A stretch of 64,000 nucleotides of DNA from Leucobacter sp. PH1c (GTDB lineage: Bacteria; Actinomycetota; Actinomycetes; Actinomycetales; Microbacteriaceae): the NCBI RefSeq assembly GCF_000633415.1, contig NZ_AYMV01000022.1, positions 1 through 64,000 on the forward strand. Direction: 5' to 3'. The notes under the pieces are model-generated. The model did not search any database and had not been told where the DNA came from. It worked only from the letters and a program-made list of their open reading frames with translations. Position 1 is the stretch's first letter. Each line of letters starts with the position of its first letter. A program made the position numbers and the translations under genes. Shown here one piece after another: positions 2,496 through 52,672 of the stretch.

Positions 2496-2533
2496 AGAGC
2501 TTCCTTTCGAGGGGGTCGGGTTTACCCGGAATT

Positions 2534-2539
2534 ACCCTA
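2534..2539 (-). promoter_or_regulatory. Candidate -10 box TAGGGT
   Basis: TAGGGT on the minus strand would give a leader of about 30 nt ahead of the GTG at 2495. No good -35 is visible, so this only suggests that the first SLH protease has its own promoter in the 157-bp gap after its paralogue. Confidence 0.3.
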
Positions 2540-2652
2540 TGCGCTCACGGCGTTCTTTCAGAAACCCGCGAGGAAACATCGCACGCTCTTCGCTGCTCGC
2601 GAGCCCAACTCCTCACGCCACACGAACGTCCGGGGCACCCCCTGGCGAGCGC

Positions 2653-5316: not shown

Positions 5317-5392
5317 ACACGTCCCTCCGCACCGCAACGGCCAGATGTGCGCCCCAGCATAAGTCCTGATGAGAGCGCTGTGTAGTCTCGTT

Positions 5393-34624: not shown

Positions 34625-37600
34625 GTGGTTTCCATGCGTGCATTTGCCCAGTCCCTCGGGCAGGGGTTTGGCCTCGTTTTTGACCGTGCACGTCCGTGGC
34701 GGCGAGACTTTTTCGTCCTTCGCACTCTCGTCGCGAGCCGTGGCCCTGACAACCCGGCGTCCATCGCGCAGCGCACGAGATATGAGTCAAAGCTCTCCAG
34801 CTCCCCGGATGCGGCGGTTCCGTACCTGCAGTGGGTGTCGGAGCAGCAGGGGTACGATGCTGCGCAGGGAGTTGCACGAGAACTCTCCCAACGTCCCCAG
34901 GCTTCCGCGGCCCTCCTCGTCGAGATCGCGAAATTCCACTACCTGACCAACAGCACCGCTCTCGGCGACAGCTACCTTGAGCAGGCGAAGTCTGTCGAGC
35001 CAGGCCTGCTTCGCATCTACGATGAGGAAGCCTGGAATCAGCGCGCACGAGGCAACCTCCATCGCGAGGCCCAAGCGGTGCAGCACGCGATCGCCGTCGC
35101 CCCCGACGAAGCGTCGCGGTTGTACTGGCGCGTGTGGCTCGGCGAGGTTCTGATCCGGCAGGAACGCTTTTCCGAGGCATGGGACCACCTGCAGCATTTC
35201 GCGCGCCTTCCCTCCGATGATGTGCGGATCCTGAGCGCAGGATACTGCGCTCACGTGCTCGGACTGCACGAGGCATCGTCCGCCGCATACCGCCGCTTCG
35301 CACCGGAGGGAGCTGACGGCTTCGACGTCCTCCGGGTCGCCCAGGCCCAGTTCGAGTCGTTCCAGCGCGCTGATGAGGCCGCGCGTCTCTTGGGAAGAGT
35401 TTCGTCCATCAGCCCGACAAAGGCACTCGAGCTGAGCGCCGATGTCCAGCTGCGGCTGGGGCACCCCGAAGCAGCGGTGGAGCACCTGAGCCTTGCCTTC
35501 GACAGGACCGACCGGAGCAGCGCTTCCCGACCCAAGCTCGCACAATTGCTGGAGCTTCTCGAGCGTAGCGATGAAGCCCTCGCGGTCTATGAGTCCTTGA
35601 CGCCGGAAGAGCGCTCACCGCTCCTCCTCTTGCGCGCCGGCGAGCTCCTCTCCGGGGAGGGGCGTACGAAAGAGGCGGTCATCCGTTTCCTCGAGAGCGT
35701 TTCAACACCGGCTCTCCCGCCGCTCGCAGCGGTCGATGTCGACCCGCAGCTGCCCGTGCTCCATGGACGCTACACCGCGGCACAGGCCCACGATGCCGAG
35801 CCACTGATTGCCGAGATTCTGAATCGCGCGAGTTCCGCCGAGCTCATTCTCGCTGCTTCGCTCGCTCTCGCCTCGATTCTTGCTCGCCAGGAGCGTTGGA
35901 CTGACGCTTGGGCAGCAATTCGCCAGGGCCAGGCTGATCGTCTCCCGAGCATCTCGCTGACCGACGGCAGCTGGGAGACACCGGGAGCGCAACGCGCGCT
36001 CCACTACGCCGAGTGGATCGAGACCGAGCCGCTTCGCCCCGAGGTCACGCTGTACGAATCCTCGCTCGGCGGCACCACTTCCTGCAATCCCCTCGCCATC
36101 TGCCTGGAGTTGCTCAGCGACCCCGCGCATGCGGGTCGCACCCATGTGTGGAGCATCGAGCCGGGCACCACGATTCACCCCGCGCTCCTCGGGCACCCCA
36201 ACGTGCGCTTCGTCGCCAAGCAATCACCTGGGTACTTCCGCGCGCTCGCAGTCGCAGGAACGATCGTCAACAATGCGACCATCGACCACGAGTTCTGCAA
36301 GCGCCCCGGGCAGCGCTATCTCAACACCTGGCACGGCGTTCCCTGGAAGCACATGGGACGTGACAACCGGGCAGAACCGTTCGCCTACGGCAACATCGCT
36401 CGGAACTTCCTGCATGCAGACATCGTGCTGGGGCCGGACCCGCACACTCTCGACGTCCTATCTCGTGGGCACGATGTCGAGGAGCTTCGTCCCGAAGTGT
36501 TCGTGCGTGCCGGCTACCCTCGCAACGATCTCACACTGAATCTCTCCCCGGAAAAGCGGGCACGTATGCGAGCGGAGCTGGGTGTCGGCCCCGAAGACAA
36601 ACTCGTTGTACTGATGCCCACATGGAAGGGAACATTTGCGGATCGGAGCAGCGAGGTCGCCCAGGTGCTCGAGGCCGCACGTGGGCTGCGCGCCTCAGGT
36701 GCGCGGGTGGCGGTCCGCGCACACCACTACGTCAGTGCAGCCTTCCAGTCCGAGGACCTCCCCGGGATCCAGCTCGTTCCCGCATCGTTCGACACGAATG
36801 AGCTCCTCGGCGCGACAGATGCCGTCGTCACCGATTTTTCCAGCGTCCTCTTCGACGCTGCGGCAACGGGGGTACCCGTCGTCAAACTGATCGATGGTCT
36901 TGAGCAGTACGCGGCAGATCGAGGCCTGTACTTCTCAGCGGATGAAGTGCCCGGAGCAAACGCCCGGAGCATCGCGGAGGCGGCCGAGCTGGTCACCTCA
37001 GCATGCGCCGACCCGGCATCGTTCACGGCGCAGTATGCAGCGCAGACCGATCGGTTCAGCGCCGGAGAGGATGGTTCATCCGCGCGACACGCGATCGAGC
37101 TCCTCTTCGGAGAGGCAATTCTCCCCGCCTCAATCGAAGCGGGTCGTGCCCCCCGAAGCGTTCTCCTCTCCACCGGGGGGCTGCCGCCGAACGGCATTAC
37201 CCGGTCAACACGAAGCCTTATCGCCTCGTTGCAAGGTACCGGATACACTCCGTACCTCATCCCGGGGAAGAACACGCTCGATGGGGCGGAGCAGGAGACC
37301 TTGCGCGACGTCCGACGATACGCCAAGGTGCTCCCGCGAGTGGGGGTCGTGGCGGGCACGCGCATGGAACGTGAAGCGCTCTACTTCGGGACCGGGCGCA
37401 ACTACGTGCCGTTCCCGATGGTTCGCCGCTTTCTTGACGCCGGCGCTCGTCGCGAAGCACATCGGCTCTTTGGAGACAGCGCATTCCACGCCGCCGTCGA
37501 GTTCAGCGCATACGATGCAAAGAACATCGTCCTCCTCAACTCGGGGGTCCAAGTCTCTGGGGGCAGGCGAGGCATCGTTTTCCACAACGAGATGTGGCAA

Positions 37601-38356
37601 GAAGTGCAGCATCGTTTCCCCCGTCTGCGATCGGGCTTCCATACCCTCGACCAGATGGATTTCCTCGCCTCAGTCAGCGATGGGGTCCGCGACTACAACG
37701 CACGAACCATGCACGAGCAATTCGGCATAGCGGAAGATCGTCATGTGACGATTGAGAACACGATCAACGTTGCCGAGATCCGCGAACTCGCACAGACGGA
37801 TCTCGCCGCAGAAGATACCGAGTGGTACGCGGCTGACGCCGCGCACGCCTGCATCGTCGCGCGTCTCTCCCCCGAGAAGAACCATGGTCAGTTCTTTGCC
37901 GCACTCGCCGCCTGCCGTGACGAGCTCAGCCGGCCGGTACGCATCACCTGCCTTGGCGACGGCCCGCTCCGCATGGAGCTGGAGCGTCAGATCCGTGACC
38001 TGGGGCTGACCGACATTGTTCGGCTGCGCGGCTTGGTCCCGAACCCTCAGGCGCACTTGCGCGCCGCCGGAGCGATGATCCTTCCTTCGCTCCATGAGGG
38101 CCAACCTCTCGTTATCCTCGAAGCGCTCACCGTCGGAGCTGAGGTCGTTGCGACCGACACTCCCGGTTCGCGATCAGTGCTCCACGACGGGGCCTTCGGC
38201 CCGCTGGTGCCGCTCTCGCAGGCGGGGCTCGAGACCGCGATTCACCGAGTCGCCGACGGTGAGCTCAGCGGAACGGAGCAATTCGATGCGGAGCAGTTCA
38301 CCGCACGCTCGCGCGATATGTTCCTCGACGCAGTCGACCCCGAGCGCTCCCGCTAG
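34625..38356 (+). CDS. Three-part wall-polymer synthase: TPR-like, CDP-glycerol glycerophosphotransferase, GT4
   Basis: This 1243-aa protein is unusually long. Residues ~40-440 are helical with TPR-like pairs (EAWDHLQHFARLPSDDVRIL, LGHPEAAVEHLSLAFDR). Residues ~470-820 are a TagF-like PF04464 domain with LNTWHGVPWKHMGRD (H570) and VTDFSSVLFDAAATGVPVV (D737). Residues ~840-1240 are a GT4-like transferase with SPEKNHGQFFAAL and ILPSLHEGQPLVILEALTVGAEVV. It should build a polymer with phosphodiester and glycosidic links in alternation. GTG 34625 is favoured by the TAGACT box; ATG 34634 is the alternative. TPRs may recruit partners or set length. Confidence 0.83.
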   Translation: MVSMRAFAQSLGQGFGLVFDRARPWRRDFFVLRTLVASRGPDNPASIAQRTRYESKLSSSPDAAVPYLQWVSEQQGYDAAQGVARELSQRPQASAALLVEIAKFHYLTNSTALGDSYLEQAKSVEPGLLRIYDEEAWNQRARGNLHREAQAVQHAIAVAPDEASRLYWRVWLGEVLIRQERFSEAWDHLQHFARLPSDDVRILSAGYCAHVLGLHEASSAAYRRFAPEGADGFDVLRVAQAQFESFQRADEAARLLGRVSSISPTKALELSADVQLRLGHPEAAVEHLSLAFDRTDRSSASRPKLAQLLELLERSDEALAVYESLTPEERSPLLLLRAGELLSGEGRTKEAVIRFLESVSTPALPPLAAVDVDPQLPVLHGRYTAAQAHDAEPLIAEILNRASSAELILAASLALASILARQERWTDAWAAIRQGQADRLPSISLTDGSWETPGAQRALHYAEWIETEPLRPEVTLYESSLGGTTSCNPLAICLELLSDPAHAGRTHVWSIEPGTTIHPALLGHPNVRFVAKQSPGYFRALAVAGTIVNNATIDHEFCKRPGQRYLNTWHGVPWKHMGRDNRAEPFAYGNIARNFLHADIVLGPDPHTLDVLSRGHDVEELRPEVFVRAGYPRNDLTLNLSPEKRARMRAELGVGPEDKLVVLMPTWKGTFADRSSEVAQVLEAARGLRASGARVAVRAHHYVSAAFQSEDLPGIQLVPASFDTNELLGATDAVVTDFSSVLFDAAATGVPVVKLIDGLEQYAADRGLYFSADEVPGANARSIAEAAELVTSACADPASFTAQYAAQTDRFSAGEDGSSARHAIELLFGEAILPASIEAGRAPRSVLLSTGGLPPNGITRSTRSLIASLQGTGYTPYLIPGKNTLDGAEQETLRDVRRYAKVLPRVGVVAGTRMEREALYFGTGRNYVPFPMVRRFLDAGARREAHRLFGDSAFHAAVEFSAYDAKNIVLLNSGVQVSGGRRGIVFHNEMWQEVQHRFPRLRSGFHTLDQMDFLASVSDGVRDYNARTMHEQFGIAEDRHVTIENTINVAEIRELAQTDLAAEDTEWYAADAAHACIVARLSPEKNHGQFFAALAACRDELSRPVRITCLGDGPLRMELERQIRDLGLTDIVRLRGLVPNPQAHLRAAGAMILPSLHEGQPLVILEALTVGAEVVATDTPGSRSVLHDGAFGPLVPLSQAGLETAIHRVADGELSGTEQFDAEQFTARSRDMFLDAVDPERSR

Positions 38357-38387: not shown

Positions 38388-41300
38388 CTATCCGCGCCGG
38401 ATACGCCTCAGGGCAAGCCGAATGCGGTCTCGGGTGCGCGCACCGGGAGGACGTACTCGGTGCGCAAGCGTACCCATCTCGGCGCGCAACGCTTCGAGTT
38501 CCTGCCGGAGTTGAACGGAGCTCCGCTCCGAGTGCTGCTCTGCCCGCTGGGTTGAGCGTTCGAGCTGCGAGATCCGGGCCGCGTGGTCTTCGACGTTGAC
38601 GAGGTTGTTCATTCGGTACATGTTTGTCGCTTCATGAGCTACTCGTGACAGAGCCAGGAGCTGTTCCTCCTGCTCATTGCACCAGCTCACTGGGTCCGCC
38701 GCCAGCACATCCGGGAGACTCACTGGCGTGCGCGTGCGGATACACTCCACGATCGCATCCCACCAGCGCCCTTGGAATCCACGTTGCGCGGCACCGGACC
38801 GGGCTACGTGCGCGGCAAACTCGTCACGGCGCTCGCGCAGCGCATCCATCAAGGGTGCGCCGTGCACCGGGGTCCAGTACTCGAATGGGATGGCGAACGA
38901 CTCCATCCCGAACCCCGCAAGCGCTCCGCGCATCCGGAGCGCTGAGTAGTAGCTCGTCACCAGGCCGACCGCGGGAGTGCCGACTGCGGCGCCGAAGACC
39001 AACGGGTGATAACGGGTGGACAGGGTGAATTCTGCCCCCGACGTGACCGTCAGCACTTCCCGCGCCGAAATCATGGGGAGCGAGCGCACTCGCCCACTCT
39101 GCGTGTAGTGCACCACACGATCATGGCCGTAGACGTCGTTCTCACGTCCGTCCTGCTCTGCGGCCCCCAGCACTCCCATGTGAGGGAGGAGCACCACGTC
39201 GAGGTTGTGTGCGTCGACCAGTGCATCGAGGATCCGTGCAAGGTCTCGGTAGTACTCCTCTCGGGCAAGGCCCGTCGAGTACGCGTGGAATGTAAAGCTG
39301 CCGACGACGTATTTCGACGGAAGCTGGAGCTGCTCGTGCAGTGCTGGAGTGGAGTCAGCCGGTTCGAGAAGCAGCGCATCGTCCAGTGTCTGCACCACAT
39401 TTCCCGATCCCGCTCCCAGCTCTCGAAGGAGAGCGGCGGTCGCCCGCTCTCGCGCGCCGAACGCGAGAGCGTAGTCCAAGAGTTCACGCACGAGTGGGCG
39501 GTCCTCGGGAACCAGGAGTGGTCCGACCGTTTGGCTCGTCACGAAGAGCGGCACGCCCGCGGACTCGGCGATTCGCTTCAGCGCCACCCGCTCGAAGATG
39601 TGCTGTGAGCCCGTCGAGTTCAGATTTCCGCCGCCGGCAATAATCACGGCGTCAGCGTCCTTCACCGCGGATACAGTCAGCGCGTCGTGCTCGTCGAGCT
39701 CTGCGCGCCCGCGCGCCCCAGCGATCAGCGCGTCGAGGCGACGCTTCCGATCCGCACGGTTCTTCTCGCGAATAAAGCCGAAGCTGGGAACGGCTGCAAC
39801 CCCGTACTGCGCGCGCGAGGTCGCGGGATCTCCTGCGATCACCGTGACCTCGCAGCCACGCTGACGCAGCTGAGCGATCGCGGCCTCCGTCATCGCCTCA
39901 TCACCCAGGTGGTAGCGGCCGTTCCAGCTCACATCGCCAATCACGAGCACACGGGGCACGTTCGGTGCGCCCTCGGGCACGGCTGCTCGAACCGTGACTC
40001 GTGCGGGACCGTGCGCCACCCGCTGAAGATCCCAAACGTCTGACCGGTGCCCGGTCACGAGGAGCGCGCTATCCGGAAGCGCTTGCACGGGCGAGTAGTT
40101 CGCGCGTCCGTGCGAATCCGTCGCGAGCGCAGAGAGCTCCCAGGAGCCGAACTGCGGCGCTTCGCCGTCGACCGGCAGCTCGGCGATCCAGGTGACGCCA
40201 TCGTCGGCCGCCGCATGTACGGTAGCCAGCTCTCTCAAGTTTCCGGATCGGGATACCCGCACGCTGAGCCTCGAGCCAGGCTCACGCAGCGCACCGAGCG
40301 GATCCGAACTCCATCCGGTGATCCGGATCGAACGCTCATCAACTTCGATGTTCTCGATCGCGTGCAAGTACATCAGCTCCGAGTGGGAGCGTGGCACACG
40401 AGAGACATCGGCAAGTCCACTCAGTTCTCGAGCCCGGATGCTCGCGGTTGGTCGACTCGCTGCATCTCGGGGCGCCCAGAAGAGGCCTCCACCAGAGCCG
40501 AAGAATCGACCGGCGAGCGCACCGCCCAGTTTGCCTCGGAGAACGGTACGCACTCCTGGAACGTCTCCTCCGGCTGCCGCAGCATAGAGCAGGCGATCTC
40601 CCAAGAATCGCCGTTCGAACGTGGCGAGCGAGGTCTTCTCCAACCGAGGGCGGATGAGCTCCAAAACCTCTCTGCACCACTCATCCTCGGATTCGAGGAA
40701 GTCGTTCAGGTAGAACCGCAGGTGATGCGCAATCACCTTGTCCTCGAAGGCAGCGACAACCGACTCCCCGCAATCGGCGAAGGCCGCCTCGGCGAGATCG
40801 AGTGACCGGAGCCGATCCTCGAGATTCTTCCGTGTGTGACGCTGGTTCGTGATCGACTGGCGTTCCTCGTTCGGATAGACATTCCAGAGATAGACCTCAT
40901 CGGAGATCTGCACGATTCCCGATGCTTGAGCAAGCGTTGTCGCCGAGAACACGACATCCTCGTACAGCATCCCTTCAGGGAACCGGGCCCCGATCCGCTC
41001 GAGAAAGGACCTGCGGTACAGCTTGTTCGTCGTCAGGGTGTCCTGCACCTCACCCGGAAGCGCCGCAATGCTCGCTCCATAGCGCCGTTCCGCATGCAGT
41101 TCGGGGAACCACGGGACTCGGCGCCCTCCATCGTTCCTCAGCACTCTCGTCAACAGGCCGGAAACGATGTCCGCTCCGCTATCGTCTGCTTCGGCCAAGA
41201 GCGCGGCCACCGCTCCCGTGGGCAGCTCATCGTCGGACCCCAAGAACATGACATATCGTCCCGTGGCGATCCGCAGGCCGTCGTTCAACGGGGCCCCGGG

Positions 41301-41516
41301 AGCGCCGGAGTTCTCCGCACGCCGATGGGAACGCACCCGCGAGTCTCGTGCCACGAAGCCAGCTACGATCTCCGGGGTCGCGTCAGTCGAGTGATCGTCG
41401 CTGATGATCACCTCGATACTCGGATGCGTCTGCGCAAGAGCCGACTCCACCGCACTGGGGAGATGCGTCGCGTCGTTGTACCCAATGATGATGACGGAAA
41501 CGTCAGGCTCGGTCAT
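38388..41516 (-). CDS. GT2 glycosyltransferase fused to polysaccharide pyruvyltransferase (CsaB-like), coiled-coil tail
   Basis: This 1042-aa protein has a GT2 at ~1-240 (DVSVIIIGYNDATHLPSAVESAL, GSDDELPTGAV) and a PF04230 pyruvyltransferase at ~520-875: GDEAM at 538-542, IIAGGGNLNSTGS, SQTVGP, and STRYHPLVFGAAVGTPAVGL (H837). The end (~980-1020) is a coiled coil followed by a basic tail. CsaB-type enzymes put ketal-pyruvate on wall polysaccharide, the ligand of SLH domains. That makes this the best functional link to the four SLH proteins in the window. ATG 41516 has GGAGGACC upstream. It is divergent from the next gene. Confidence 0.85.
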   Translation of the reverse strand: MTEPDVSVIIIGYNDATHLPSAVESALAQTHPSIEVIISDDHSTDATPEIVAGFVARDSRVRSHRRAENSGAPGAPLNDGLRIATGRYVMFLGSDDELPTGAVAALLAEADDSGADIVSGLLTRVLRNDGGRRVPWFPELHAERRYGASIAALPGEVQDTLTTNKLYRRSFLERIGARFPEGMLYEDVVFSATTLAQASGIVQISDEVYLWNVYPNEERQSITNQRHTRKNLEDRLRSLDLAEAAFADCGESVVAAFEDKVIAHHLRFYLNDFLESEDEWCREVLELIRPRLEKTSLATFERRFLGDRLLYAAAAGGDVPGVRTVLRGKLGGALAGRFFGSGGGLFWAPRDAASRPTASIRARELSGLADVSRVPRSHSELMYLHAIENIEVDERSIRITGWSSDPLGALREPGSRLSVRVSRSGNLRELATVHAAADDGVTWIAELPVDGEAPQFGSWELSALATDSHGRANYSPVQALPDSALLVTGHRSDVWDLQRVAHGPARVTVRAAVPEGAPNVPRVLVIGDVSWNGRYHLGDEAMTEAAIAQLRQRGCEVTVIAGDPATSRAQYGVAAVPSFGFIREKNRADRKRRLDALIAGARGRAELDEHDALTVSAVKDADAVIIAGGGNLNSTGSQHIFERVALKRIAESAGVPLFVTSQTVGPLLVPEDRPLVRELLDYALAFGARERATAALLRELGAGSGNVVQTLDDALLLEPADSTPALHEQLQLPSKYVVGSFTFHAYSTGLAREEYYRDLARILDALVDAHNLDVVLLPHMGVLGAAEQDGRENDVYGHDRVVHYTQSGRVRSLPMISAREVLTVTSGAEFTLSTRYHPLVFGAAVGTPAVGLVTSYYSALRMRGALAGFGMESFAIPFEYWTPVHGAPLMDALRERRDEFAAHVARSGAAQRGFQGRWWDAIVECIRTRTPVSLPDVLAADPVSWCNEQEEQLLALSRVAHEATNMYRMNNLVNVEDHAARISQLERSTQRAEQHSERSSVQLRQELEALRAEMGTLAHRVRPPGARTRDRIRLALRRIRRG

Positions 41517-41673
41517 CTGTCAGGTCCTCCGGGATCAATCACTTCACGCCCGTGAGATCCACGTAGCGCATGCTCACTAGGGTATCCGGAGTACCCGGCG
41601 GCGACGCCCGTTGATTCCTTTGAGAAGCGCCTCCTCGGTCGTTTCCCGCGTGTTCACGGTACGATTACCCAGG

Positions 41674-41679
41674 TACATT
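41674..41679 (+). promoter_or_regulatory. Candidate -10 box TACATT
   Basis: Would give a ~23-nt leader with GGAGA before ATG 41709. The 192-bp divergent gap also holds TACCCT on the minus strand (complement of 41580-41585) for the pyruvyltransferase gene. Confidence 0.35.
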
Positions 41680-41708
41680 GGCTTGCGTCTCCAGGAGAAC
41701 CAACAGAA

Positions 41709-44360
41709 ATGACCCACGACTCCTCCGCCCAGGTCCGGGTCTCCACGAATGAGCGTGCACTGAGCGCTGATTCTGCCCCTCGCCTGAGCCTCGTGATCCC
41801 CTGCTACAACGTCGAAACGTACCTTCCGGTGCTGCTCCATAGCCTGGACGCACAAGACTGCAACCCTGCGTCCGTCGAGCTGCTCTTCGTGATCGATGGC
41901 TCCCCGGATCGATCTGAGCAGATCATCGCGGAATGGATGCCGCGGTCACAGTTCGCCGTGTCGCTCATCGTCCAAGAGAACCGCGGAGTCGCTGGGGCCC
42001 TCAACACCGGACTCGAGCGAGCCCAGGGCGAATGGGTGAGCTTCTCGGGACCTGATGATGAGCTCTCGCCTCAGTACTTCTCGGAGATTTTCGGCGGCAT
42101 TCTTCAGTTCCCCGAGATCGACATGTTTGTGACCCGCTTGGTACGAATCAGCCAGGAGGGTCAGGTCGTCCCGCACCCGCTCGACTACAAGTTCGCAAAC
42201 CACGATGAGCCTTTTGTCGTCGATCTGGCATCGGATCCGGAGATGATCCATCTCGCGGGCGGAACGATTGCCCTCCGGCTCAGCCGAGTCGCAGAGACCG
42301 GGGTCACTCACGACGAGACGCTACGCAGCGGGTTTGAGGACGCTCAGCTGATCTCGCAGTTCTTGCTTCGTCTCCCCCAGGCGCAGTACGCAATTGTTCC
42401 CCAGGCGCACTACTACTACCATTCCCGGGCAGACTCAATTATCGCGACGTCTTCCGCCGATTACACCCACAAGCTTCCTCTGTTTGAAACGGTCTACAAC
42501 CGACTCCTCGACGAGGCAGGAAGCACGTGCCCCGCGTGGCTCGCCAACGTCATTCTGTACGACATGTATTGGGTGTTCCGTCAATACCTACGTTTCCGAT
42601 CATCTGTGTTCGCAATGGACGACTCCACGAACCAGCGGTTTAACTCAGCGTCCAGGGAAGTGCTTCGCAGGATCGGGATCAACCACATTCGTTCGTTCCG
42701 GGTGGTGAACGTGCCTCTCGACATCCGGGCAGCTTGGGAAGCTGCCGTAGATCCCGAGCTCGTCACGTCAATCGCTGTGTTCCGTGCGCATGATCCAGTT
42801 CGGCGACTGAACAAGATCACGTTCCATTCAGGAGCGCCAGAGATCACAGTTCCCATCTCCTCTCGACGAAAAGACCGGTCCCGGGCATTTACGACCAGTA
42901 GAGAACTGCACTACTTCGGGGAAACCTGGGTTTTCGAGAACATCTACTGGATTACAGACGCGCTGAACTCCGGCGATGCCAGAGATGTGAAGTTCTCATC
43001 GCGGGAGATTGAGTTTTACGCGGGGGGAGCTGTTTTCACGACGCGTGATGCTGGGCGTGCACTCGGGAAGACCCCTCCGCGTGCAGGCCGTCCAGTTCTG
43101 ACACCTCGAGCTGATGCGCGGACGGCCGCTAAGAGGTCGGCCCGCACTCAGGCGATCCAGGAGCGTCTGCTGAGGACGTCCTACGCGCTCGCTTATCGGC
43201 TCGGCGGTGTCCTCGGCTGGCGCCGCCAGTTCGCCAACGCTTGGGTGCTGATCGATCGAAACACTCAGGCCAACGACAACGCCGAGGCGCTCTACCGTTA
43301 CCTTCGGGAAGCAAGACCCGACATCAACGCCTGGTTCGTCATCGACCAGGGAACGAGCGACTGGGCTCGTCTGAAGGCGGATGGCTTCCGGCTCGTGGCG
43401 CACGGGAGCAAGAAGCACTTCGCGCTCATGAAGGAGGCGCAGGTGCTCGCTTCCTCCATGATCGATCACTACATCGTGCAGCCGTTCCCGAAGAGATTCC
43501 TCGAGAAGACCTGGAGCTATTCGTTCCTCCAGCACGGGGTCACGAAGGACCTGCTGCATCGGTGGTGGAACCCGAAGACCGTAGATCACTTAGTCACGGC
43601 AACGTTGCCTGAGCATCAGTCGATTGCAGGCAGCCCCTCCCCGTACAACCTTTCCGAACGAGAGGTCACGCTCACTGGCATGCCGCGCCACGATCGCCTG
43701 TTCCGGCTGATGGCGGAAGCTCCCCTGCGGCGGGAGGGCACCCACCGCATTGTGCTCATGCCGACGTGGCGCAACTATCTGCTCGGCGAGAATACCGGAG
43801 CCGAACGAAGCCAGTTGGATGGTTTTGCGGATTCGCAGTTCGTCACCGAGTGGTCGCGATTCTTGAACGGCGCGTACCTCTCAGCGCTCGCTCAACGGCC
43901 AGACATCGAGGTGGTTCTCCTCCCGCACCCCGGCATCGATGCGCACTGGCAAGATCTCGTTGTTCCTCCGGGAGTCCGTCGAGTCTCCTATGTCGGCGAC
44001 GACGTCCAGGAAATCCTCGCCGGCGCAACACTCGTTGTCACGGACTACTCATCTCAGGCGTTCGAAGGCGCATTCTGCAACGCACCCTCGGTGTACTTCC
44101 AGTTCGACCGAGAAGAGTTCTTCTCCGGCGGGCATATTGGGTCCCCTGGGTATTTCGACTACATTCGCGACGGTTTCGGCCCGGTCTGCGAGGAGCGAGC
44201 CACGCTTGAGCAGGCGCTTGAGGAGATGATCTCCGGCACGCACGCCGAGCTACCGACATATCGTCGTCGCATTGCACGGCTGTACCCGCTACGTGACGGG
44301 AAAGCCTCTGCCCGCATCGTCGGCGAGATTGAAGCGCGACTGCGCCCCTACGGCAGCTAA
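41709..44360 (+). CDS. GT2 glycosyltransferase fused to CDP-glycerol glycerophosphotransferase domain
   Basis: This 883-aa enzyme has a GT2 at ~20-250 (LSLVIPCYNVETYLPVLLHSL, FVIDGSPDRS, SGPDDELSPQYF), a middle region of ~250 residues without a clear family, and a PF04464 domain at ~500-870 with LQHGVTKDLLHRWW (H609) and VVTDYSSQAFEGAF (D779). It probably extends the polyol-phosphate or sugar-phosphate chain. It is the third TagF-like protein here and differs from the others in its middle part. ATG 41709 follows GGAGAACCAACAGAA. A hairpin follows its stop. Confidence 0.83.
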   Translation: MTHDSSAQVRVSTNERALSADSAPRLSLVIPCYNVETYLPVLLHSLDAQDCNPASVELLFVIDGSPDRSEQIIAEWMPRSQFAVSLIVQENRGVAGALNTGLERAQGEWVSFSGPDDELSPQYFSEIFGGILQFPEIDMFVTRLVRISQEGQVVPHPLDYKFANHDEPFVVDLASDPEMIHLAGGTIALRLSRVAETGVTHDETLRSGFEDAQLISQFLLRLPQAQYAIVPQAHYYYHSRADSIIATSSADYTHKLPLFETVYNRLLDEAGSTCPAWLANVILYDMYWVFRQYLRFRSSVFAMDDSTNQRFNSASREVLRRIGINHIRSFRVVNVPLDIRAAWEAAVDPELVTSIAVFRAHDPVRRLNKITFHSGAPEITVPISSRRKDRSRAFTTSRELHYFGETWVFENIYWITDALNSGDARDVKFSSREIEFYAGGAVFTTRDAGRALGKTPPRAGRPVLTPRADARTAAKRSARTQAIQERLLRTSYALAYRLGGVLGWRRQFANAWVLIDRNTQANDNAEALYRYLREARPDINAWFVIDQGTSDWARLKADGFRLVAHGSKKHFALMKEAQVLASSMIDHYIVQPFPKRFLEKTWSYSFLQHGVTKDLLHRWWNPKTVDHLVTATLPEHQSIAGSPSPYNLSEREVTLTGMPRHDRLFRLMAEAPLRREGTHRIVLMPTWRNYLLGENTGAERSQLDGFADSQFVTEWSRFLNGAYLSALAQRPDIEVVLLPHPGIDAHWQDLVVPPGVRRVSYVGDDVQEILAGATLVVTDYSSQAFEGAFCNAPSVYFQFDREEFFSGGHIGSPGYFDYIRDGFGPVCEERATLEQALEEMISGTHAELPTYRRRIARLYPLRDGKASARIVGEIEARLRPYGS

Positions 44361-44367
44361 GTCTCCT

Positions 44368-44410
44368 CACAGGATGGCGGGAAACGACTCAGCGGTTCCC
44401 GCCATCTGTG
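44368..44410. terminator. Bidirectional hairpin between convergent genes
   Basis: GATGGCGGGAA (44373-44383) pairs perfectly with TTCCCGCCATC (44396-44406). CACA/TGTG extend the stem past a one-base bulge. It lies between the TagF-like gene and the convergent SLH-protein gene and should terminate both. Confidence 0.82.
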
Positions 44411-44435
44411 TGCAGCTCTGGTGGGTTGGTTCAGG

Positions 44436-46193
44436 TCAGTGCTTCAGGCGATAGATGAACGCGGCCATGGCTTCGCGGGAGACCCGATCCTTCGGCGCAT
44501 ACTTTGGTTTGCCAGAGGGCTGCTTGATGCCAGTCGAGTAGCCCTTCTGATGCATCCACGCGATCTCGTTGTAGAACTTGTCGCCCTTGCGAACGTCTGC
44601 GAACGGAGAAACTGCAGGCCCAACGTAGCTCGCCTTCTCCATTCGGTAGATGAAGGCAGCCATCGCCTCGCGGGAGACCCGATCCTTCGGCGCATACTTT
44701 GGTTTGCCAGAGGGCTGCTTGATGCCAGTCGAGTAGCCCATCTGATGCATCCACGCGATCTCGTTGTAGAACGGGTCACCCGGCTTCACATCTGAGAACG
44801 GAGAGACAGCTGGTCCCCGGTAGTTCGCGCCCTGCAGACGGTACAGGAACGCGGCCATCGCCTCCCGAGACACCCTGGTCTTGGGCTGGTACTGAGCCTC
44901 CCGCCCGTCTGCCGTCTTGATTCCGGTACTCAACCCGCTCGTGCCCATCCACTCAATTTCAGTGAAGAACTGGTGGCTCTGGGGGACGTCGGGGAAGAAG
45001 GTGTTCGGCGATCCGAACCACTGCTTATAAAAACGATAGAAGTTCCGGTTGCCGTAGCTCGAGCACGCGTTTCCGGTGCCCCCACCTGCATCAAGAGCAG
45101 ATTGATTTGGGCGATAAGGCGTGTAGTTGTAGAGCCCGGCCGTCGCAAGGTTCTCGATATAGACCGTCGAGCGTCCACAGTCGACTGGCACACGATTCTT
45201 ATCGTCTGGCGCCCATTTGATCTGGTTATTCTGGAACGGGACGTGATTGTAGTTGCTTGGATTTGTCTTGTATGCCTTGAATTGCCACGCTGCCAGGTAG
45301 ACCTGGTTAAAGAAGCCGTAGTAACGCGAATCGCACATCGCTCCACCGGCGCTATCGTCGGGGCAGGCATACCCGGTCGCACGATCAAACTGATGCTGCG
45401 CTGGGAAGTCATCCGTAACGAGAGACTGTTCCTTCTCCAACAGAACAAGAAGAGCCTTTGAGCTGATACCGCAAGCTGCCCCTACTCTCTGCAAGATCAT
45501 GGCGGCAGTCTGGCCTGTTCCCCCGGAGTAGGCCTTGCAATATGCATTCGCAGGCTGATTCGGTGTCGAGAATTTTTCATCTCGAAGACACTTCATTGCG
45601 AGTCGCGTCGAGTCTCCATTCGGGAAGTAGTAGATTCCACCAGGCGGTTTGCCAGGTTCACCCAGCGTGCAACGGGGAACTCGCTGGTTGAGGAAGTCCT
45701 GGATCTGCGACACGCTCATTGCGTTCGCGTTGTAGAAGTTTGAATCCGAGATGATATATCCGGCTCTGAAACCGCTGGTAGAACTCACGTTCGAAGTGAG
45801 AGCGTTCTGCGCGGCGAGACGCGAGCCCCGTTCCTCAGATTCCAGGGCTCGTAGCTCTGCGTCGCGAATCTGCCATGAATCATCGACAGTTGCGGCATCG
45901 TTCGTCGCTTGTGGCTCAGTCTCGTCGGGAACCATGAGATTCTCGGCCGGGATTGGAACTCCCGTTCCTGTGGAGTCAGGAGACTCAGGGCTATCGTCAG
46001 CTTTTCCTTCTTCCGCTTCCGGTTCTGCCACCGATTCTTCCTCGCCGTTCAAGAGGGTTTCCTCGACAACCTCTGTGGTTGGATCGTCGGCGAATCCGTC
46101 GACCGCGAGAGCACTTGTCGCAGGTACCAGCAAGCCTGCAATCATTGACAGTGCTGCTGTGAGGTAGAGAAAACTCCGGGGGCGCCGATTCAT
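44436..46193 (-). CDS. Secreted protein with conserved Cys-rich domain and three SLH-type repeats
   Basis: This 585-aa protein has a signal peptide (~1-31, ending TSALA) and an acidic linker to ~140. A domain at ~145-395 is conserved in many actinobacterial surface proteins: FYNANAMSVSQIQDFLN, CGISSKALLVLLEKEQSLV, CDSRYYGFFNQVYLAAWQFKAY, GLYNYTPYRPNQSAL and NRNFYRFYKQWFGSP, with about eight Cys. I do not know a name for it; the EKEQ helix followed by a GFFNQV block recalls lysozyme-fold enzymes, which is inference. Three SLH-like repeats end the protein; the last two are almost identical. ATG 46193 follows GGGAG. Confidence 0.82.
   Translation of the reverse strand: MNRRPRSFLYLTAALSMIAGLLVPATSALAVDGFADDPTTEVVEETLLNGEEESVAEPEAEEGKADDSPESPDSTGTGVPIPAENLMVPDETEPQATNDAATVDDSWQIRDAELRALESEERGSRLAAQNALTSNVSSTSGFRAGYIISDSNFYNANAMSVSQIQDFLNQRVPRCTLGEPGKPPGGIYYFPNGDSTRLAMKCLRDEKFSTPNQPANAYCKAYSGGTGQTAAMILQRVGAACGISSKALLVLLEKEQSLVTDDFPAQHQFDRATGYACPDDSAGGAMCDSRYYGFFNQVYLAAWQFKAYKTNPSNYNHVPFQNNQIKWAPDDKNRVPVDCGRSTVYIENLATAGLYNYTPYRPNQSALDAGGGTGNACSSYGNRNFYRFYKQWFGSPNTFFPDVPQSHQFFTEIEWMGTSGLSTGIKTADGREAQYQPKTRVSREAMAAFLYRLQGANYRGPAVSPFSDVKPGDPFYNEIAWMHQMGYSTGIKQPSGKPKYAPKDRVSREAMAAFIYRMEKASYVGPAVSPFADVRKGDKFYNEIAWMHQKGYSTGIKQPSGKPKYAPKDRVSREAMAAFIYRLKH
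44473..44577. repeat. 105-bp direct repeat inside SLH region, copy 1
   Basis: Matches 44668-44772 with one difference (GCCCTT against GCCCAT). Encodes the body of the third SLH repeat. Confidence 0.92.
44668..44772. repeat. 105-bp direct repeat inside SLH region, copy 2
   Basis: Second copy, 195 bp away, in the second SLH repeat. Such identity points to recent duplication or gene conversion within the gene. Confidence 0.92.
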
Positions 46194-46272
46194 ACTCCCA
46201 CCCTAGAGGGCGCTCCGACCGATGCGGGGTTTCTCCCACAACTACTCACGGTGCGCACCCCCTGCATTCCCG

Positions 46273-49200
46273 CTAGCCGCCCGTCTCGAGCCGGTACAAG
46301 AACGCCGCCATCGCTTCACGGGACACCGCGGCCGCGGGCGAGTACTTCGGCTTCCCGCCGGGCTGGCGGATCCCGGTCGACAGTCCTGAATCGTACATCC
46401 AGGAGATCTCACGGGAGAACCGGTCGCCGGGGCCTACGTCCGCAAAGGGCGAACGCGCAGGTGCCGTGTACGTCGGCTTCTCCAGACGGAACAGGAATGC
46501 GGCCATGGCTTCGCGGGAAACCGGTGCCTTCGGGTCGTACACCAGCCCCCGCGAGGTCTTGATTCCCGTGCTCAACCCGGTCTCGTGCATCCACGCGATC
46601 TCCCGATAGAACTGGTGGTTCGTGGGGACGTCCACAAACGGGGAGCTTTTCGGCGCGGTGAACGATTTGTCTGCTGCGAGCCTGAACAGGAAGGCCGCCA
46701 TCGCTTCACGAGTCACCTGCTCCTTCGGCAAGTACTTGGGCTTCCCGGATGGCTGCTTGACCCCGGTCGACATCCCCGAGGTGGACATCCACCCGATCTC
46801 CCGCGCGAACTTGTGGTTCGCGGAGACATCTGCGAACGGCGGCTGTGCCGGAGGCGCCGGTGTACCGGGGACCTTCACCGTTGCGGAGGAACGCACCGCG
46901 GAGGTATAACCGGTCTTCGTCCCAGTCACCGCGACCGTCAACCTCCGAGCGACGTCACCGGATGCGACTCGATAGCTCGTCCCCGTCGCACCTGGTATCG
47001 CCGTTCCGTTCCGGAACCACTGGAAGCTCAGCTGGACCGTTCCCGGCCCCCAGGTCCCCGACTGTGCGGTGAGGGTCGCCCCTACTGACGGCGTTCCGGT
47101 GATGCGCGGTGAGGTGGTCGACAGTACGCCCGGCGCTACGGTGTGGCTCGCTGAGACGCGGGTCACACTCGCGTGGGCGGGCTTCGCTCCGGTACTGCGG
47201 AACGAGATCTGCGTTCCTCGATCGGCCGGGGTCAACGTGTACTTGGTTCCGGTTGCCCCAGGGATCGCTTTTCCGTCCCGGAGCCACTGAGAGGTGAGCT
47301 GCACCGGTGCGGGCTGCCACTGGCCCGGACTCGCAGCCAACTGCTCCCCCACACGCACCTGTCCTGAGATCTGCGGGGTCGGGCGTTGCGCGAGTGTAAG
47401 GATTCCCACGGAACGCGGGTGCTCGGCGACGAACCACCCGCCAGCGCTCGTCCCCATCCCAGCGTGCTCGATGCGCGACGCACCGAATCCAGTGCCGGAG
47501 CTGCGGGCGATCCGCACCCCGGCAGCGCTGAAGCCCACGATGTCAGCCCGCCCGTCGCCATCGACATCCGTGACTTGCCGCGGGAGCGTGTTGTTCCGCC
47601 AGTCTCGCGCGCCGAACTCTCCAGTCCACCGGGTCGGCGCCGCGAACCCGCTCCCCGTACTCAGCGCGACGAGCACCCCGTCATTGTCGAAACCGATCAC
47701 GTCAGCGCGACCGTCGCCGTTCACATCAGCGAGGACCCGCGGGTGAGTGCCGACGAGCCAGCCGGCGGCCGTGCCGAAGCCGCCCCGCCAGAGCGTCATC
47801 GGCCGGAGACCGCTCCCGGTGTTGATCGCAACGTAGACTCCGTCCGAGGCGAAGCCCACCAGGTCTGGCCGGCCATCACCATTGACGTCTGCGAGAGCCC
47901 GCGGGTGCGCAACCAGCGCCCAGCCGTCCTTGCCAGCGAACTGCGCGCTCCACTGCTTCGCTGCAGCGAATTTCGTCCCGGTATTGAGCGCAACGTAGAC
48001 CCCAGCGTTCGAAATACCCACCACATCGGGACGGCCATCGCCGTTCATGTCTTGCAGGAATCTCGGGGTCTTATCGACAGTCCACCCCTTGGCCGTCCCG
48101 AATCCGTCGTACCACTTCTTCATGCCCGCGAAGCCCTTGCCCGTGTTCACAGCCACGTAGACCCCGTCGGAGGCGAAGGCAACGATATCCGCGAGGCCGT
48201 CGCCGTTGACATCGACGAGTGTTCGAGGGTGGTGGGCCACCGCCCACCCATCGGCCGAGCCGAACTGCGCAGACCACCGCTTCATCGCGGAGAATCCGCT
48301 GCCCGTGCTGAGCGAAACGTAGACGCCGTCATCGGCGAAGCCCACTACGTCGGATTTCCCATCACCGTTGACGTCAACGAGCGTGCGCGGATGGCGCGAA
48401 GGAGTCCACCCCGTCTCGGTCCCGAAACCGCTCCCCCACGTCTTCGCTTGGCCGAACCCCGTCTGAGTCCGAAGCGCAACCTGGACACCGTTGCTCGCGA
48501 ACCCCACAGCGTCGGGAAGACCGTCGCCGTTCACATCCGAGTTCCAGGGGAGGATCTCCTGAGTGTCGTCGATTCCATTGCCGTTGCTGTCCACCATCTG
48601 AACGGCACCTGTCGCGGCTGACACCGTTGCAGCGGGCCGGTAGCCTCGCAGATCCCCAGTAGCCTCGACGGTGATGCGGGTACCGAAGTCTGCCAGGACG
48701 GGCTGGTAGTTCGCTTTCGTCGCCCCCGGGATGACCGCCCCGTCTCGGAGCCACCGATACCGATAGCTCGTGGGCTTCGGCGTCCACCCCGAGACGGTCG
48801 CGGTCAGCGTGCCGCCCACCATTGCTGCACCCGAGATCGTCGGCTTCGTCGTCTTCGTGAATGGGGAGGTGAGATCCGCGATGTGGATGTACCCCTGAAA
48901 CTCGTCCGACCGGATGGTTCGGCTGTAATACGCCCCGGCCCAGCCGTAGTTGTACTCCTCGATGACCACGCGACCGTCGCTCAGCACGTCGGCGACCCAG
49001 GCCACGTGGCCGAACTCGGAGGCGCCACCGTAGTAGGGGCCGCTCCATGCGATGGCCCCGACCTCGGGTGTGCGGTCCACTCGAATCCCGAGGCTCCGCG
49101 CCGAGTCTCCCCACTCGGACGCATTGCCCCAGCGGACCAGGCCCCCGTACTGGTTGCTGAACGGGATCTTGTTCGCGGTGTTCAGGCGCCAGGCCACGAA

Positions 49201-49755
49201 CGAGGTGCACTGGCGATGCGCGAAGTTCCACTCATCCCAGCGGATGGGGAACATCGGGAGCTGCTTGTACTTCTGCGGATAGTTGTCGCCGATCAGGGCT
49301 CGGCCCGAGGCGTTCGTGAGCGGAGCGATCGCGCTTCCATCCCACGGTCGCGCGTCGGCGGGGCCGGGAGAATCCGATACGAGGCCCCCGTTGGCGCCGC
49401 GGATCCCTTCTTCTGGCAGCTCGGTACCCGGTTCGGGCTCTCCGTCGGGATCCGTTCCCGGTTCCGGCGTCGGCTCGGTTCCGGGGTCGACTCCCGGGTC
49501 CGTTCCTGGCGTGCCGGGCTCAGTGGAGGGCTCTTCCGGAAGATCCGGATCGCCCGGCCCGGTCGGGACGGGGGGTGTCGCCGGATCAGGAGCTGGCACG
49601 GGATCCTGCCCGGGCGATTCCACGCCCCGAGTCGGCGTCCCCCCGGCGACTGCCCCCGCAGGGGACACTGCCCCGACCCCGCAGAGCAGGGTGATTCCCA
49701 GGGTGATCGCCAGGGTTCTCGCGGCGTGCCGACGTGCGCGTCCTCCCGAAAACAT
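46273..49755 (-). CDS. Secreted CHAP-domain protein with FG-GAP repeats, Ig-like modules and SLH anchor
   Basis: This 1160-aa protein has a basic N-terminus and signal peptide (to ~35), then a linker of PGT(D/E)P repeats. A CHAP amidase/peptidase domain lies at ~150-290 with QCTSFVAWRL (C183) and FGHVAWV (H250). An Ig-like module (~300-385) is followed by about seven FG-GAP/VCBS repeats (DVNGDG..D.VGFA.DGVYV.L.TG, ~395-800), two more Ig-like modules and three SLH-like repeats. It probably hydrolyses peptidoglycan while anchored to wall polymer. ATG 49755 lies 6 nt from TAGACT with no ribosome site, so it is leaderless. Confidence 0.85.
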   Translation of the reverse strand: MFSGGRARRHAARTLAITLGITLLCGVGAVSPAGAVAGGTPTRGVESPGQDPVPAPDPATPPVPTGPGDPDLPEEPSTEPGTPGTDPGVDPGTEPTPEPGTDPDGEPEPGTELPEEGIRGANGGLVSDSPGPADARPWDGSAIAPLTNASGRALIGDNYPQKYKQLPMFPIRWDEWNFAHRQCTSFVAWRLNTANKIPFSNQYGGLVRWGNASEWGDSARSLGIRVDRTPEVGAIAWSGPYYGGASEFGHVAWVADVLSDGRVVIEEYNYGWAGAYYSRTIRSDEFQGYIHIADLTSPFTKTTKPTISGAAMVGGTLTATVSGWTPKPTSYRYRWLRDGAVIPGATKANYQPVLADFGTRITVEATGDLRGYRPAATVSAATGAVQMVDSNGNGIDDTQEILPWNSDVNGDGLPDAVGFASNGVQVALRTQTGFGQAKTWGSGFGTETGWTPSRHPRTLVDVNGDGKSDVVGFADDGVYVSLSTGSGFSAMKRWSAQFGSADGWAVAHHPRTLVDVNGDGLADIVAFASDGVYVAVNTGKGFAGMKKWYDGFGTAKGWTVDKTPRFLQDMNGDGRPDVVGISNAGVYVALNTGTKFAAAKQWSAQFAGKDGWALVAHPRALADVNGDGRPDLVGFASDGVYVAINTGSGLRPMTLWRGGFGTAAGWLVGTHPRVLADVNGDGRADVIGFDNDGVLVALSTGSGFAAPTRWTGEFGARDWRNNTLPRQVTDVDGDGRADIVGFSAAGVRIARSSGTGFGASRIEHAGMGTSAGGWFVAEHPRSVGILTLAQRPTPQISGQVRVGEQLAASPGQWQPAPVQLTSQWLRDGKAIPGATGTKYTLTPADRGTQISFRSTGAKPAHASVTRVSASHTVAPGVLSTTSPRITGTPSVGATLTAQSGTWGPGTVQLSFQWFRNGTAIPGATGTSYRVASGDVARRLTVAVTGTKTGYTSAVRSSATVKVPGTPAPPAQPPFADVSANHKFAREIGWMSTSGMSTGVKQPSGKPKYLPKEQVTREAMAAFLFRLAADKSFTAPKSSPFVDVPTNHQFYREIAWMHETGLSTGIKTSRGLVYDPKAPVSREAMAAFLFRLEKPTYTAPARSPFADVGPGDRFSREISWMYDSGLSTGIRQPGGKPKYSPAAAVSREAMAAFLYRLETGG

Positions 49756-50845: not shown

Positions 50846-52672
50846 TCAGCGCTTCGACGCCCGGTACCCCGCGGCGACCGCGGCCGAGGCGGAGGAGAAG
50901 CACGCCTCCGGCTTGGTGCGGGAGTAGTAGGCGCCGCCCGGCACGTGGTAGATCCATTCCTTCCCGTTCTGGTTGCCCTTGATCGGCGCCCACGCCGGGC
51001 AGTTCCAGGAGCCGCCGGGGTTGTAGCGCGCGGGGGCCTTCACCGCGGCCGTCGCCGCCGAGGTCTGCGTCGCGGTCGAGTAGCCGCTCTTCGTTCCCAC
51101 GACGCGCACGGTGATCCGCTTCCCGATGTCGGCGCCGCCGAGCGTGTAGCTCGTGCCGGTGGCGCCGCGGATCACGGCGCCGTTGCGCAGCCACTGGGTG
51201 CTGAGCTTGGTGCCGCTCGTCCAGGTGCCGCGGTTCACCGTCAGCTTCGAGCCGGCGAGCGCGGAGCCCGAGATCTTCGGCTTCGCCGCGCCGAGCACCT
51301 TCGGGATGCTGCGCGTGCCAGAGGTCTTCGCGGTCGTCACGTAGCCGGACTTCTTCCCCGTGACGCGGACGGAGATCTTGGCCCCGCCGTCGGCCTTCGT
51401 GAGCGTGTAGCTCGACTTCGTCGCGCCCGAGATCGCGGCGCCGTTCCGCAGCCACTGATAGCTCAGCGCGACGGGGGCGGGTTTCCACGCGCCGGGCGCG
51501 GCGGTGAGCTTCGCACCGACCTTCGACGTGCCGGAGATCGTGGGGGTCGGGGCCGCCGTGAGGGGGCGGAGCACCGTCGCGGTCGCCGTCGAGGTGACCG
51601 TGCGGCTCGTGTAGCCGGTGAGCGCGCCCGTGACGCTGAGGGTGATCTTCTTCCCGGCGTCCGCCGAGGTGAGCGTGTAGCGCGAGCCCGTGGCCTTCGC
51701 GATCGCCGCCCCGTTGCGCTTCCACTGGTACTTCAGTGCGACACCGCCGGGCTTCCACCCGCTCACCGAGCTCGTGAGCGTCGTGCCCACGACGGCCGAG
51801 CCGGAGATCTTCGGGGCGGGGGCCGTGAGCGCGCCTGCGGCGACGGGCTTCGCCGCGCGCGCGGTGAGCGCCGCCGTCGTGTAGCCCGGCAGCGAAGACG
51901 TGACCGTCGCGGAGATTGTCGCGCCGAGGTCCTTCGCCGTGAGCGTGTAGTTCACGCCCGTCGCCCCGGCGATGGCGGCTCCGTTGCGCTTCCACTGGAT
52001 CTGCACGCGAGCCCCGCTCGGCACGGAGGCCCGCGCGGCGACGCTGAGCTGCTGCCCCACGCTCGCGGTGCCCGTGAGGCTGAGCGCGCCCGGCTGGAGC
52101 GTCCCGGGGCTGACGCGCAGCCCCGCCGAGTACGCCGTGACTGGCTCGGCGCCCGCGCGGGAGGCCGTCACAGCGAGGCGCAGGGTCTTCCCCGAGGCCT
52201 CGCCCGGCAGCAGGAAGCGCTCCCCGGTCGCGCCGGGAACGTCTGCGCCGTCGAGCTGCCACTGCAGCGCGAACTCGAGGTCCGGCGCGAGCCAGAGGCC
52301 CGGCGTGCCCTGGACGGTCTGCCCCACCTGAGCCGTGCCGGTCACGGCGGGGAGCTGCTCCGGCGCGGGAATGGGATCGACCGGGTCACCGGGCTCGCCC
52401 GGCCCGGGCTCACGGGGCTCAGGATCCCCCGGATCGGACTCCCCCGGCGCGGGCGCGGTGGGAGCACCGGGCTCGGTCGGAGCACCGGGATCCGCCGGCT
52501 CGGCCGTCTCGCCGAATCCGGGCTCGGCCGGATCGAGCGCGCCTGTGCCCACATCGCCCGCGATCCCGGCCGGAATCCACGCGTCGCCCGTGCCCTCCTC
52601 CGCGAGGGCGGGGCTCGCCGAGAGCCCGAGGACGAGGCCCGCGGTGAGCAGGACGCCGAGCAGCTTGCGCAT
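50846..52672 (-). CDS. Secreted protein with five or so Ig-like modules and SunSET-like C-terminus
   Basis: This 608-aa protein has a signal peptide (1-24, ASPALA), a Pro/Glu/Gly linker to ~105, and tandem ~90-aa Ig-like modules, each with the block (Q)W.(R/K)(N/D)G..I.GATG..Y.L....G..I.V.VTG...GY. These match the modules in the CHAP/SLH protein. The last ~55 residues (CPAWAPIKGN, EWIYHVPGGAYYSRTKPEACFSS, AAGYRASKR) look like the SunSET domain seen at the end of secreted nucleases and wall proteins. No enzyme domain is present, so a structural or adhesive role is likely. ATG 52672 follows GGGAG. Confidence 0.8.
   Translation of the reverse strand: MRKLLGVLLTAGLVLGLSASPALAEEGTGDAWIPAGIAGDVGTGALDPAEPGFGETAEPADPGAPTEPGAPTAPAPGESDPGDPEPREPGPGEPGDPVDPIPAPEQLPAVTGTAQVGQTVQGTPGLWLAPDLEFALQWQLDGADVPGATGERFLLPGEASGKTLRLAVTASRAGAEPVTAYSAGLRVSPGTLQPGALSLTGTASVGQQLSVAARASVPSGARVQIQWKRNGAAIAGATGVNYTLTAKDLGATISATVTSSLPGYTTAALTARAAKPVAAGALTAPAPKISGSAVVGTTLTSSVSGWKPGGVALKYQWKRNGAAIAKATGSRYTLTSADAGKKITLSVTGALTGYTSRTVTSTATATVLRPLTAAPTPTISGTSKVGAKLTAAPGAWKPAPVALSYQWLRNGAAISGATKSSYTLTKADGGAKISVRVTGKKSGYVTTAKTSGTRSIPKVLGAAKPKISGSALAGSKLTVNRGTWTSGTKLSTQWLRNGAVIRGATGTSYTLGGADIGKRITVRVVGTKSGYSTATQTSAATAAVKAPARYNPGGSWNCPAWAPIKGNQNGKEWIYHVPGGAYYSRTKPEACFSSASAAVAAGYRASKR

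Follow-up and report, generated by a model that had tools for sequence, protein, structure and literature searches.

The locus and its genes

We analysed the first 64 kb (hereafter the window) of a 137-kb contig (C22) from a 3.12-Mb genome of the genus Leucobacter, in which the gene for a putative cell-wall pyruvyltransferase lies close to genes for secreted proteins with S-layer homology (SLH) repeats. The pyruvyltransferase gene (38388-41516, minus strand) is a single frame of 1042 amino acids. Domain searches found a GT2 glycosyltransferase in its N-terminal part (residues 7-175, E 1.2e-30), fused to a CsaB-like ketal-pyruvyltransferase domain, PS_pyruv_trans (PF04230; residues 537-855, E 1.5e-36). 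The PF04230 match scores 127.2 bits (Pfam gathering cut-off 25.3) and spans model positions 2-279 of 280, i.e., the full domain, and it is the only one in the genome.

Four SLH proteins are encoded in the window, all on the minus strand, and the genome's fifth is on another contig (C35). Each of the five has a signal peptide (by eye) and three terminal SLH repeats, giving 15 repeats in total. S1 (54-2495) and S2 (2653-5337) form a tandem gene pair (54-5337), and both carry the metzincin-like motif HEIGHNLGLGH (by eye). S3 (44436-46193) has a region without a Pfam match, and S4 (46273-49755) has a CHAP domain and FG-GAP repeats; in all four, the SLH repeats are C-terminal. The initial annotation placed SLH proteins at both flanks of the wall-polymer genes. 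All four are present, but only the pair at 44.4-49.8 kb is near the pyruvyltransferase gene, the other pair being 33-38 kb away.

The remaining genes supply the polymerase, exporter and ligase functions of a wall teichoic acid type of cluster, all within the window. Domain searches identified three proteins with TagF-like polymerase domains (PF04464), all on the plus strand: two are GT2 fusions (30257-32497 and 41709-44360), and the third is joined to a GT4-type glycosyltransferase (34625-38356). The first of these has TarF as its best NCBIfam match, below that model's cut-off. Between them are a TagG-like ABC-2 permease (ABC2_membrane; 32609-33475, plus strand) and a TagH-like ATPase (33459-34586, plus strand) that carries LGFP repeats (PF08310) in its C-terminal region and whose top two NCBIfam matches are teichoic-acid export (TagH-type) models, both below their cut-offs. 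An LCP (LytR_CpsA_Psr) protein, the candidate polymer ligase, is encoded at 53806-55236 (minus strand), 12 kb from the pyruvyltransferase gene. Codon-position G+C backs the frames of the locus genes, and every component named in the initial annotation (pyruvyltransferase domain, three TagF-like proteins, TagGH-type exporter, LCP protein and four SLH proteins) is present.

Compared with the TagGH/TarF wall teichoic acid system, the window shares the PF04464 domains, the ABC-2 permease and the TagH-like ATPase, but its glycosyltransferases are fused, its ATPase carries the LGFP region, and all of these proteins fall below the NCBIfam equivalog cut-offs. The LGFP region may sense a finished glycan end; we take the carbohydrate-binding domain of Wzt to be a precedent. 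We found no publication combining LGFP, ABC transporter and teichoic. Elsewhere in the window, the frame at 50846-52672 (minus strand) encodes a protein that weakly matches Ig-like domains and has a "sunset" domain in its C-terminal part (NF051437, 56.7 bits, cut-off 27).

The pyruvyltransferase subfamily and the SLH repeats

The CsaB equivalog model (TIGR03609) scores the window enzyme at 78.8 bits for the whole protein and 82.9 bits for the domain, below its cut-off of 213.1 bits. The label "CsaB-like" is therefore justified, while an identification as CsaB itself is not. We aligned the window's pyruvyltransferase domain (38841-39953) with 24 others (10 from Leucobacter and 14 from loci in other genera) and call this group subfamily A2. 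All 25 members match the CsaB model, which is the only NCBIfam family to match every one of them. With the family profiles, A2 members score at least 211 bits, while the PF04230 proteins of SLH-negative Leucobacter score below 45 bits or do not match. Membership in genome searches was set at E<=1e-40.

The candidate catalytic residues are conserved: 25/25 members share an invariant Arg, Arg-x-His motif and additional Arg (domain positions 168, 314/316 and 340; counted with residue 522 of the window enzyme as the domain start, these would be residues 689, 835/837 and 861). We paired them with CsaB R148, R306/H308 and K328 from their order and spacing and not from an alignment to CsaB. A sequence search of the PDB with A2 found no pyruvyltransferase. 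The 50 fold-search matches listed likewise include no solved pyruvyltransferase and are GT-B enzymes in general, so the fold search does not discriminate. For the GT2 part of the window enzyme, the closest solved relatives are 5tze and 5tz8, which we take to be Staphylococcus aureus TarS, a wall-teichoic-acid sugar transferase. The fusion occurs in both orders, with GT2 first in the window and PF04230 first at two other loci (L095 and L100); other loci, L227 and L103 among them, have no GT2 part.

All 54 SLH trimers that we examined match PF00395, and the motif REAMAAF occurs in 14 of the 15 repeats of the window genome. The predicted structure of an SLH trimer (pLDDT 95.7) has the known SLH trimer fold: it matches Sap (3pyw) with a TMq of 0.79, as well as 6bt4 and the SpaA-SLH structures determined in complex with pyruvylated ligands (TMq up to 0.79). 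In SpaA and Sap, the pyruvate is contacted by SLH-Arg43 and SLH-Gly29, and N-acetylmannosamine (ManNAc) stacks against SLH-Trp13 (PMC6081394).

We compared these positions across 397 distinct actinobacterial SLH repeats from the fetched loci. Arg43 is present in 395/395 and Gly29 in 373/375, and both are kept in all 15 repeats of the window genome. Position 13, by contrast with SpaA and Sap, is Trp in none of 393 repeats; in the window genome it is K, Q, R or P, and a profile aligned to Sap puts Lys opposite Trp13 and Arg opposite Arg43. The neighbouring position 14 is Phe in 321 of 394 repeats, and a Trp at position 20, in helix 1, is near invariant (383/395). The initial annotation's appeal to Firmicutes-type ligand reading is supported at Arg43 and Gly29 but not at Trp13, and because this Trp is missing, the ligand is not readable exactly as in Bacillus. 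On the simplest interpretation, these repeats retain the pyruvate pocket, and the ligand contains a different sugar.

The number of SLH matches per Leucobacter genome ranges from 0 to 50. The genome with 50 (G342) has one of them within a 5206-amino-acid frame. The system is also present in L. celer subsp. astrifaciens CBX151 (G303, L163; 35 SLH matches) and L. musarum CBX152 (G230, L169; 5 SLH matches), which we take to be the nematode-adhering strains Verde1 and Verde2. The worm-star paper reports surface adhesion, but its available text uses no CBX names; the term "surface protein" was not found in that text (PMC3898767).

Co-occurrence and linkage across genomes

We used profile searches for SLH and PF04230 to survey 54 Leucobacter genomes. 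SLH was found in 21 and PF04230 in 22: 15 genomes have both, 6 have SLH only, 7 have PF04230 only and 26 have neither (Fisher 5e-4). The association is stronger when SLH proteins are numerous, since all 13 genomes with at least three SLH matches have PF04230, vs 9/41 of the others (Fisher 4e-7), and when the enzyme is restricted to A2, which is present in 11/21 SLH-positive and 0/33 SLH-negative genomes (p 4e-6). The seven SLH-negative genomes with PF04230 were considered as cases against the link and set aside, as they have no A2 at the membership threshold (one weak match, E 8e-6).

The genes are also close together. In all 13 multi-SLH Leucobacter genomes, at least one PF04230 gene is no more than 10 kb from an SLH gene. 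The A2 gene itself is this close in 9 of the 11 Leucobacter genomes that carry it, the distances in the other two being 14 kb (G303) and 27 kb (G310). The two multi-SLH genomes without A2 (G188 and G344) have a different PF04230 gene 4-6 kb from SLH, and in a draft genome (G334) the distance from PF04230 gene to SLH gene is 3.4 kb. In the stretches fetched around the A2 gene, TagF-like genes occur in all 11 A2-positive Leucobacter and a TagH-like ATPase with an LGFP region in 10; in the eleventh (G317), the LGFP portion is visible where the fetched stretch ends. A teichoic-type polymer is therefore likely in Leucobacter.

For four one-contig Leucobacter genomes, we calculated the chance that a random place would be equally near an SLH gene, using the SLH places among the matches listed. 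The chances are 0.005 (G317), 0.024 (G299), 0.12 (G342) and 0.25 (G310). Among those same matches, 5/9, 2/5, 4/38 and 3/17 SLH places, respectively, are no more than 50 kb from the enzyme, against expectations of 0.26, 0.14, 1.03 and 0.53. In SLH-rich genomes, each taken alone, this position test is weak.

Two wider surveys covered 299 Microbacteriaceae genomes and 396 genomes of the order (91 with SLH, 305 without). Across the order, PF04230 is present in 80/91 SLH-positive vs 170/305 SLH-negative genomes (p 6e-9), a comparison that is free of selection bias in A2. A2 was found in 49/396 genomes: 34/91 with SLH and 15/305 without (p 9e-14). Linkage was assessed in up to 20 kb around the A2 gene of these 49 genomes, with some stretches ending at contig ends or lying off-centre. 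Among the 34 genomes with both SLH and A2, the A2 gene is within 10 kb of SLH in 22 (window included), and in 16 the two genes are no more than 500 bp apart (as stop-to-stop frames). A profile search found a TagF-like gene beside none of these 16 tight pairs within the fetched 20 kb. At one locus (L095), for example, an SLH-amidase gene is directly followed by a PF04230-GT2 fusion, and on the annotated side of the pair there are purL-type, acyl-CoA oxidase and TetR genes.

On a pyruvyltransferase tree (119 rows, quick method), the SLH-linked state appears in several separate clades. It requires 18 changes, at least 14 of them forced by starred branches, compared with a mean of 37 when shuffled. 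In one other genus of the order, non-A2 PF04230 genes lie near SLH genes (L144, L145, L159 and L160); these may be another enzyme lineage that shares this neighbour.

From the surveys and the linkage counts, the association between SLH proteins and pyruvyltransferases exceeds chance. The observation that prompted this analysis, that a pyruvyltransferase and SLH clients go together, is therefore real and wider than one locus, extending through the genus and order and often involving adjacent genes. The further idea that the link is specific to a teichoic-like polymer did not survive, because the 16 tight pairs of the order have no TagF-like gene in 20 kb.

Proposed SLH anchoring and its alternatives

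That SLH proteins are anchored to a pyruvylated polymer is established for Bacillus and Paenibacillus. The Leucobacter locus resembles that system in having a PF04230 domain whose best NCBIfam match is CsaB, SLH trimers with Arg43 and Gly29 whose model folds as Sap and SpaA do, and clustered genes, as with csaB, tagA, tagO, slhA and spaA of P. alvei (PMC6801904). It differs in its enzyme, which is fused to GT2 (in the window and several relatives) and scores far below the CsaB cut-off; in its SLH repeats, which have no Trp13 and read [ST]REA in place of TRAE; and in its TagF-like genes, as the ligand polymers published so far have no alditol phosphates (PMC6801904).

With moderate confidence, we read the locus as making a pyruvylated wall polymer together with secreted SLH proteins that are anchored on it. 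The TagF-like enzymes would build a polyol-phosphate-type chain, and the GT2-pyruvyltransferase fusion would add a sugar and then a ketal pyruvate on that sugar, with phosphoenolpyruvate as the donor. The pyruvylated sugar would presumably have its place on the TagF polymer, which TagGH would export and the LCP protein would tie to peptidoglycan. The SLH trimers of the two metzincin-like proteins, the CHAP protein and S3 would then use Arg43 and Gly29 to hold the pyruvylated sugar, which would retain these clients on the cell. Pyruvate-dependent SLH anchoring in a modified form is the most likely arrangement, here probably on a teichoic-type polymer. The earlier interpretation is partly supported.

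Several results weigh against this reading. Enzymes for CDP-polyol synthesis or the linkage unit were not among the Pfam matches of the scanned window frames, a genome-wide search for them not having been made. Fourteen of the 25 A2 rows had been picked from SLH-linked loci, so the A2 linkage counts are biased upward, and the SLH repeats were collected with a profile built from those of the window, which may have missed dissimilar ones; both choices work in favour of our interpretation. As a control, we took the best non-A2 PF04230 gene in each of 21 chosen stretches from SLH-positive genomes (including G463 and G652, which also carry A2). Five of these genes have SLH within 10 kb, and four of the five come from one genus (Fisher 0.005); adding two linked non-A2 cases fetched earlier (G424 and G696) makes this 7/23 (p 0.016). 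The co-occurrence tests are uncorrected for kinship, and in Microbacteriaceae the difference in PF04230 between SLH-positive genomes (9/12) and the others (152/287) is not significant (p 0.15).

To these can be added the case that the initial annotation had named as a refutation, i.e., genomes with the repeats and no pyruvyltransferase. Such genomes make up 6/21 of the SLH-positive genomes in the genus (each with 1-2 SLH matches), 3/12 in the family and 11/91 in the order, and one (G211) has six SLH matches. They are real exceptions: when the 18 distinct genomes were searched again with the threshold relaxed to E<=10, a single match appeared, at 12 bits and below the cut-off. Five of the Leucobacter exceptions (G316, G305, G306, G088 and G322) have SLH repeats that appear drifted by eye, and the sixth (G307) has well-kept ones. 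Proteins of the metzincin-like HExxHxxGxxH type persist with the drifted repeats in those five (by eye). In the G307 protein (L041), the SLH trimer, which retains Arg43 and Gly29, is close to the N-terminus, and the C-terminal part resembles CAP/SCP by eye. Given the genomes without PF04230, the family test and the uncorrected kinship, SLH proteins may have more than one ligand.

Among the alternatives, the one that survives best is that pyruvylation serves the polymer itself (e.g., through charge, or phage and stress traits) and is unrelated to SLH, the genes merely sharing surface-gene islands. We consider this unlikely, although it has substance: 170 of the 250 PF04230-positive genomes of the order have no SLH, and neither do 15 of the 49 A2-positive genomes. 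Nine of those 15 belong to one genus, which we read as Brevibacterium, so an A2 enzyme can serve without SLH. This explanation fits poorly with the 16 order genomes in which SLH and A2 genes are no more than 500 bp apart with no TagF-like gene in 20 kb, with the housekeeping neighbours on the annotated side at L095, and with the absence of A2 from all 33 SLH-negative Leucobacter.

Pyruvylated teichoic acids are chemically established in Brevibacterium iodinum (mannitol 4,5-pyruvate and N-acetylgalactosamine 4,6-pyruvate) and in Nocardiopsis, and the same review gives the function of pyruvylation in Actinobacteria as not known (PMC6801904). An A2-type enzyme is present in B. iodinum ATCC 49514 (L201) and in other named Brevibacterium, which supports a pyruvyltransferase role for A2, with the chemistry coming from a different strain (VKM Ac-2106). 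The differences are that the SLH profile had no match in the nine genomes of the order that we read as Brevibacterium, and that the 21 kb fetched around the A2-type gene of B. iodinum yielded no TagF-like gene. This B. iodinum gene is flanked by a chaperonin gene on one side and an ABC/FtsX pair on the other. One genome of this group (G588) has three PF04230 matches, i.e., further PF04230 genes besides A2.

The ligand of actinobacterial SLH trimers might instead be peptidoglycan or a glycan without pyruvate, with the Arg and Gly conserved for structural reasons. The loss of Trp13 from 393/393 repeats and the existence of SLH genomes without PF04230, including G307 and G211, are in keeping with this, as are published statements that TRAE also matters for SLH folding (Blackler 2018) and that direct peptidoglycan binding by SLH is controversial (PMC5817068). 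We nevertheless judge it improbable, as it leaves the recurring adjacency of SLH and pyruvyltransferase genes unexplained and Leucobacter sets of three or more SLH matches always come with PF04230 (13/13). That the PF04230 domain is inactive or transfers something other than pyruvate seems very improbable: its score is below the CsaB equivalog cut-off (82.9 vs 213 bits) and neither the sequence search nor the 50 fold matches listed produced a solved pyruvyltransferase, but the invariant Arg, Arg-x-His and Arg of A2 correspond in order and spacing to those expected from CsaB.

Returning to pyruvate-dependent anchoring, the results suggest that the Bacillus rule also holds, modified, in related actinobacteria. 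Among the papers listed by our literature searches, no title concerns the Leucobacter cell wall (teichoic acid or S-layer), and none names a system joining SLH with actinobacterial pyruvyltransferases. We tentatively propose, as a possibility that goes further than the locus itself, that actinobacterial SLH proteins could form a second ligand-reading class, defined by an Arg43/Gly29 pocket, no Trp13 and a near-invariant Trp20. This class would read a pyruvylated sugar other than ManNAc on wall polymers of the teichoic or another type. A specialised subfamily of pyruvyltransferases would place it there; many of these enzymes are joined to a glycosyltransferase, with either domain first, and their genes recur beside SLH genes as a compact pair. 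If true, it would provide the first function for the pyruvylated teichoic acids of Actinobacteria, and the locus would unite two orphan observations: many SLH proteins lacking a known ligand and pyruvylated teichoic acids lacking a known purpose.

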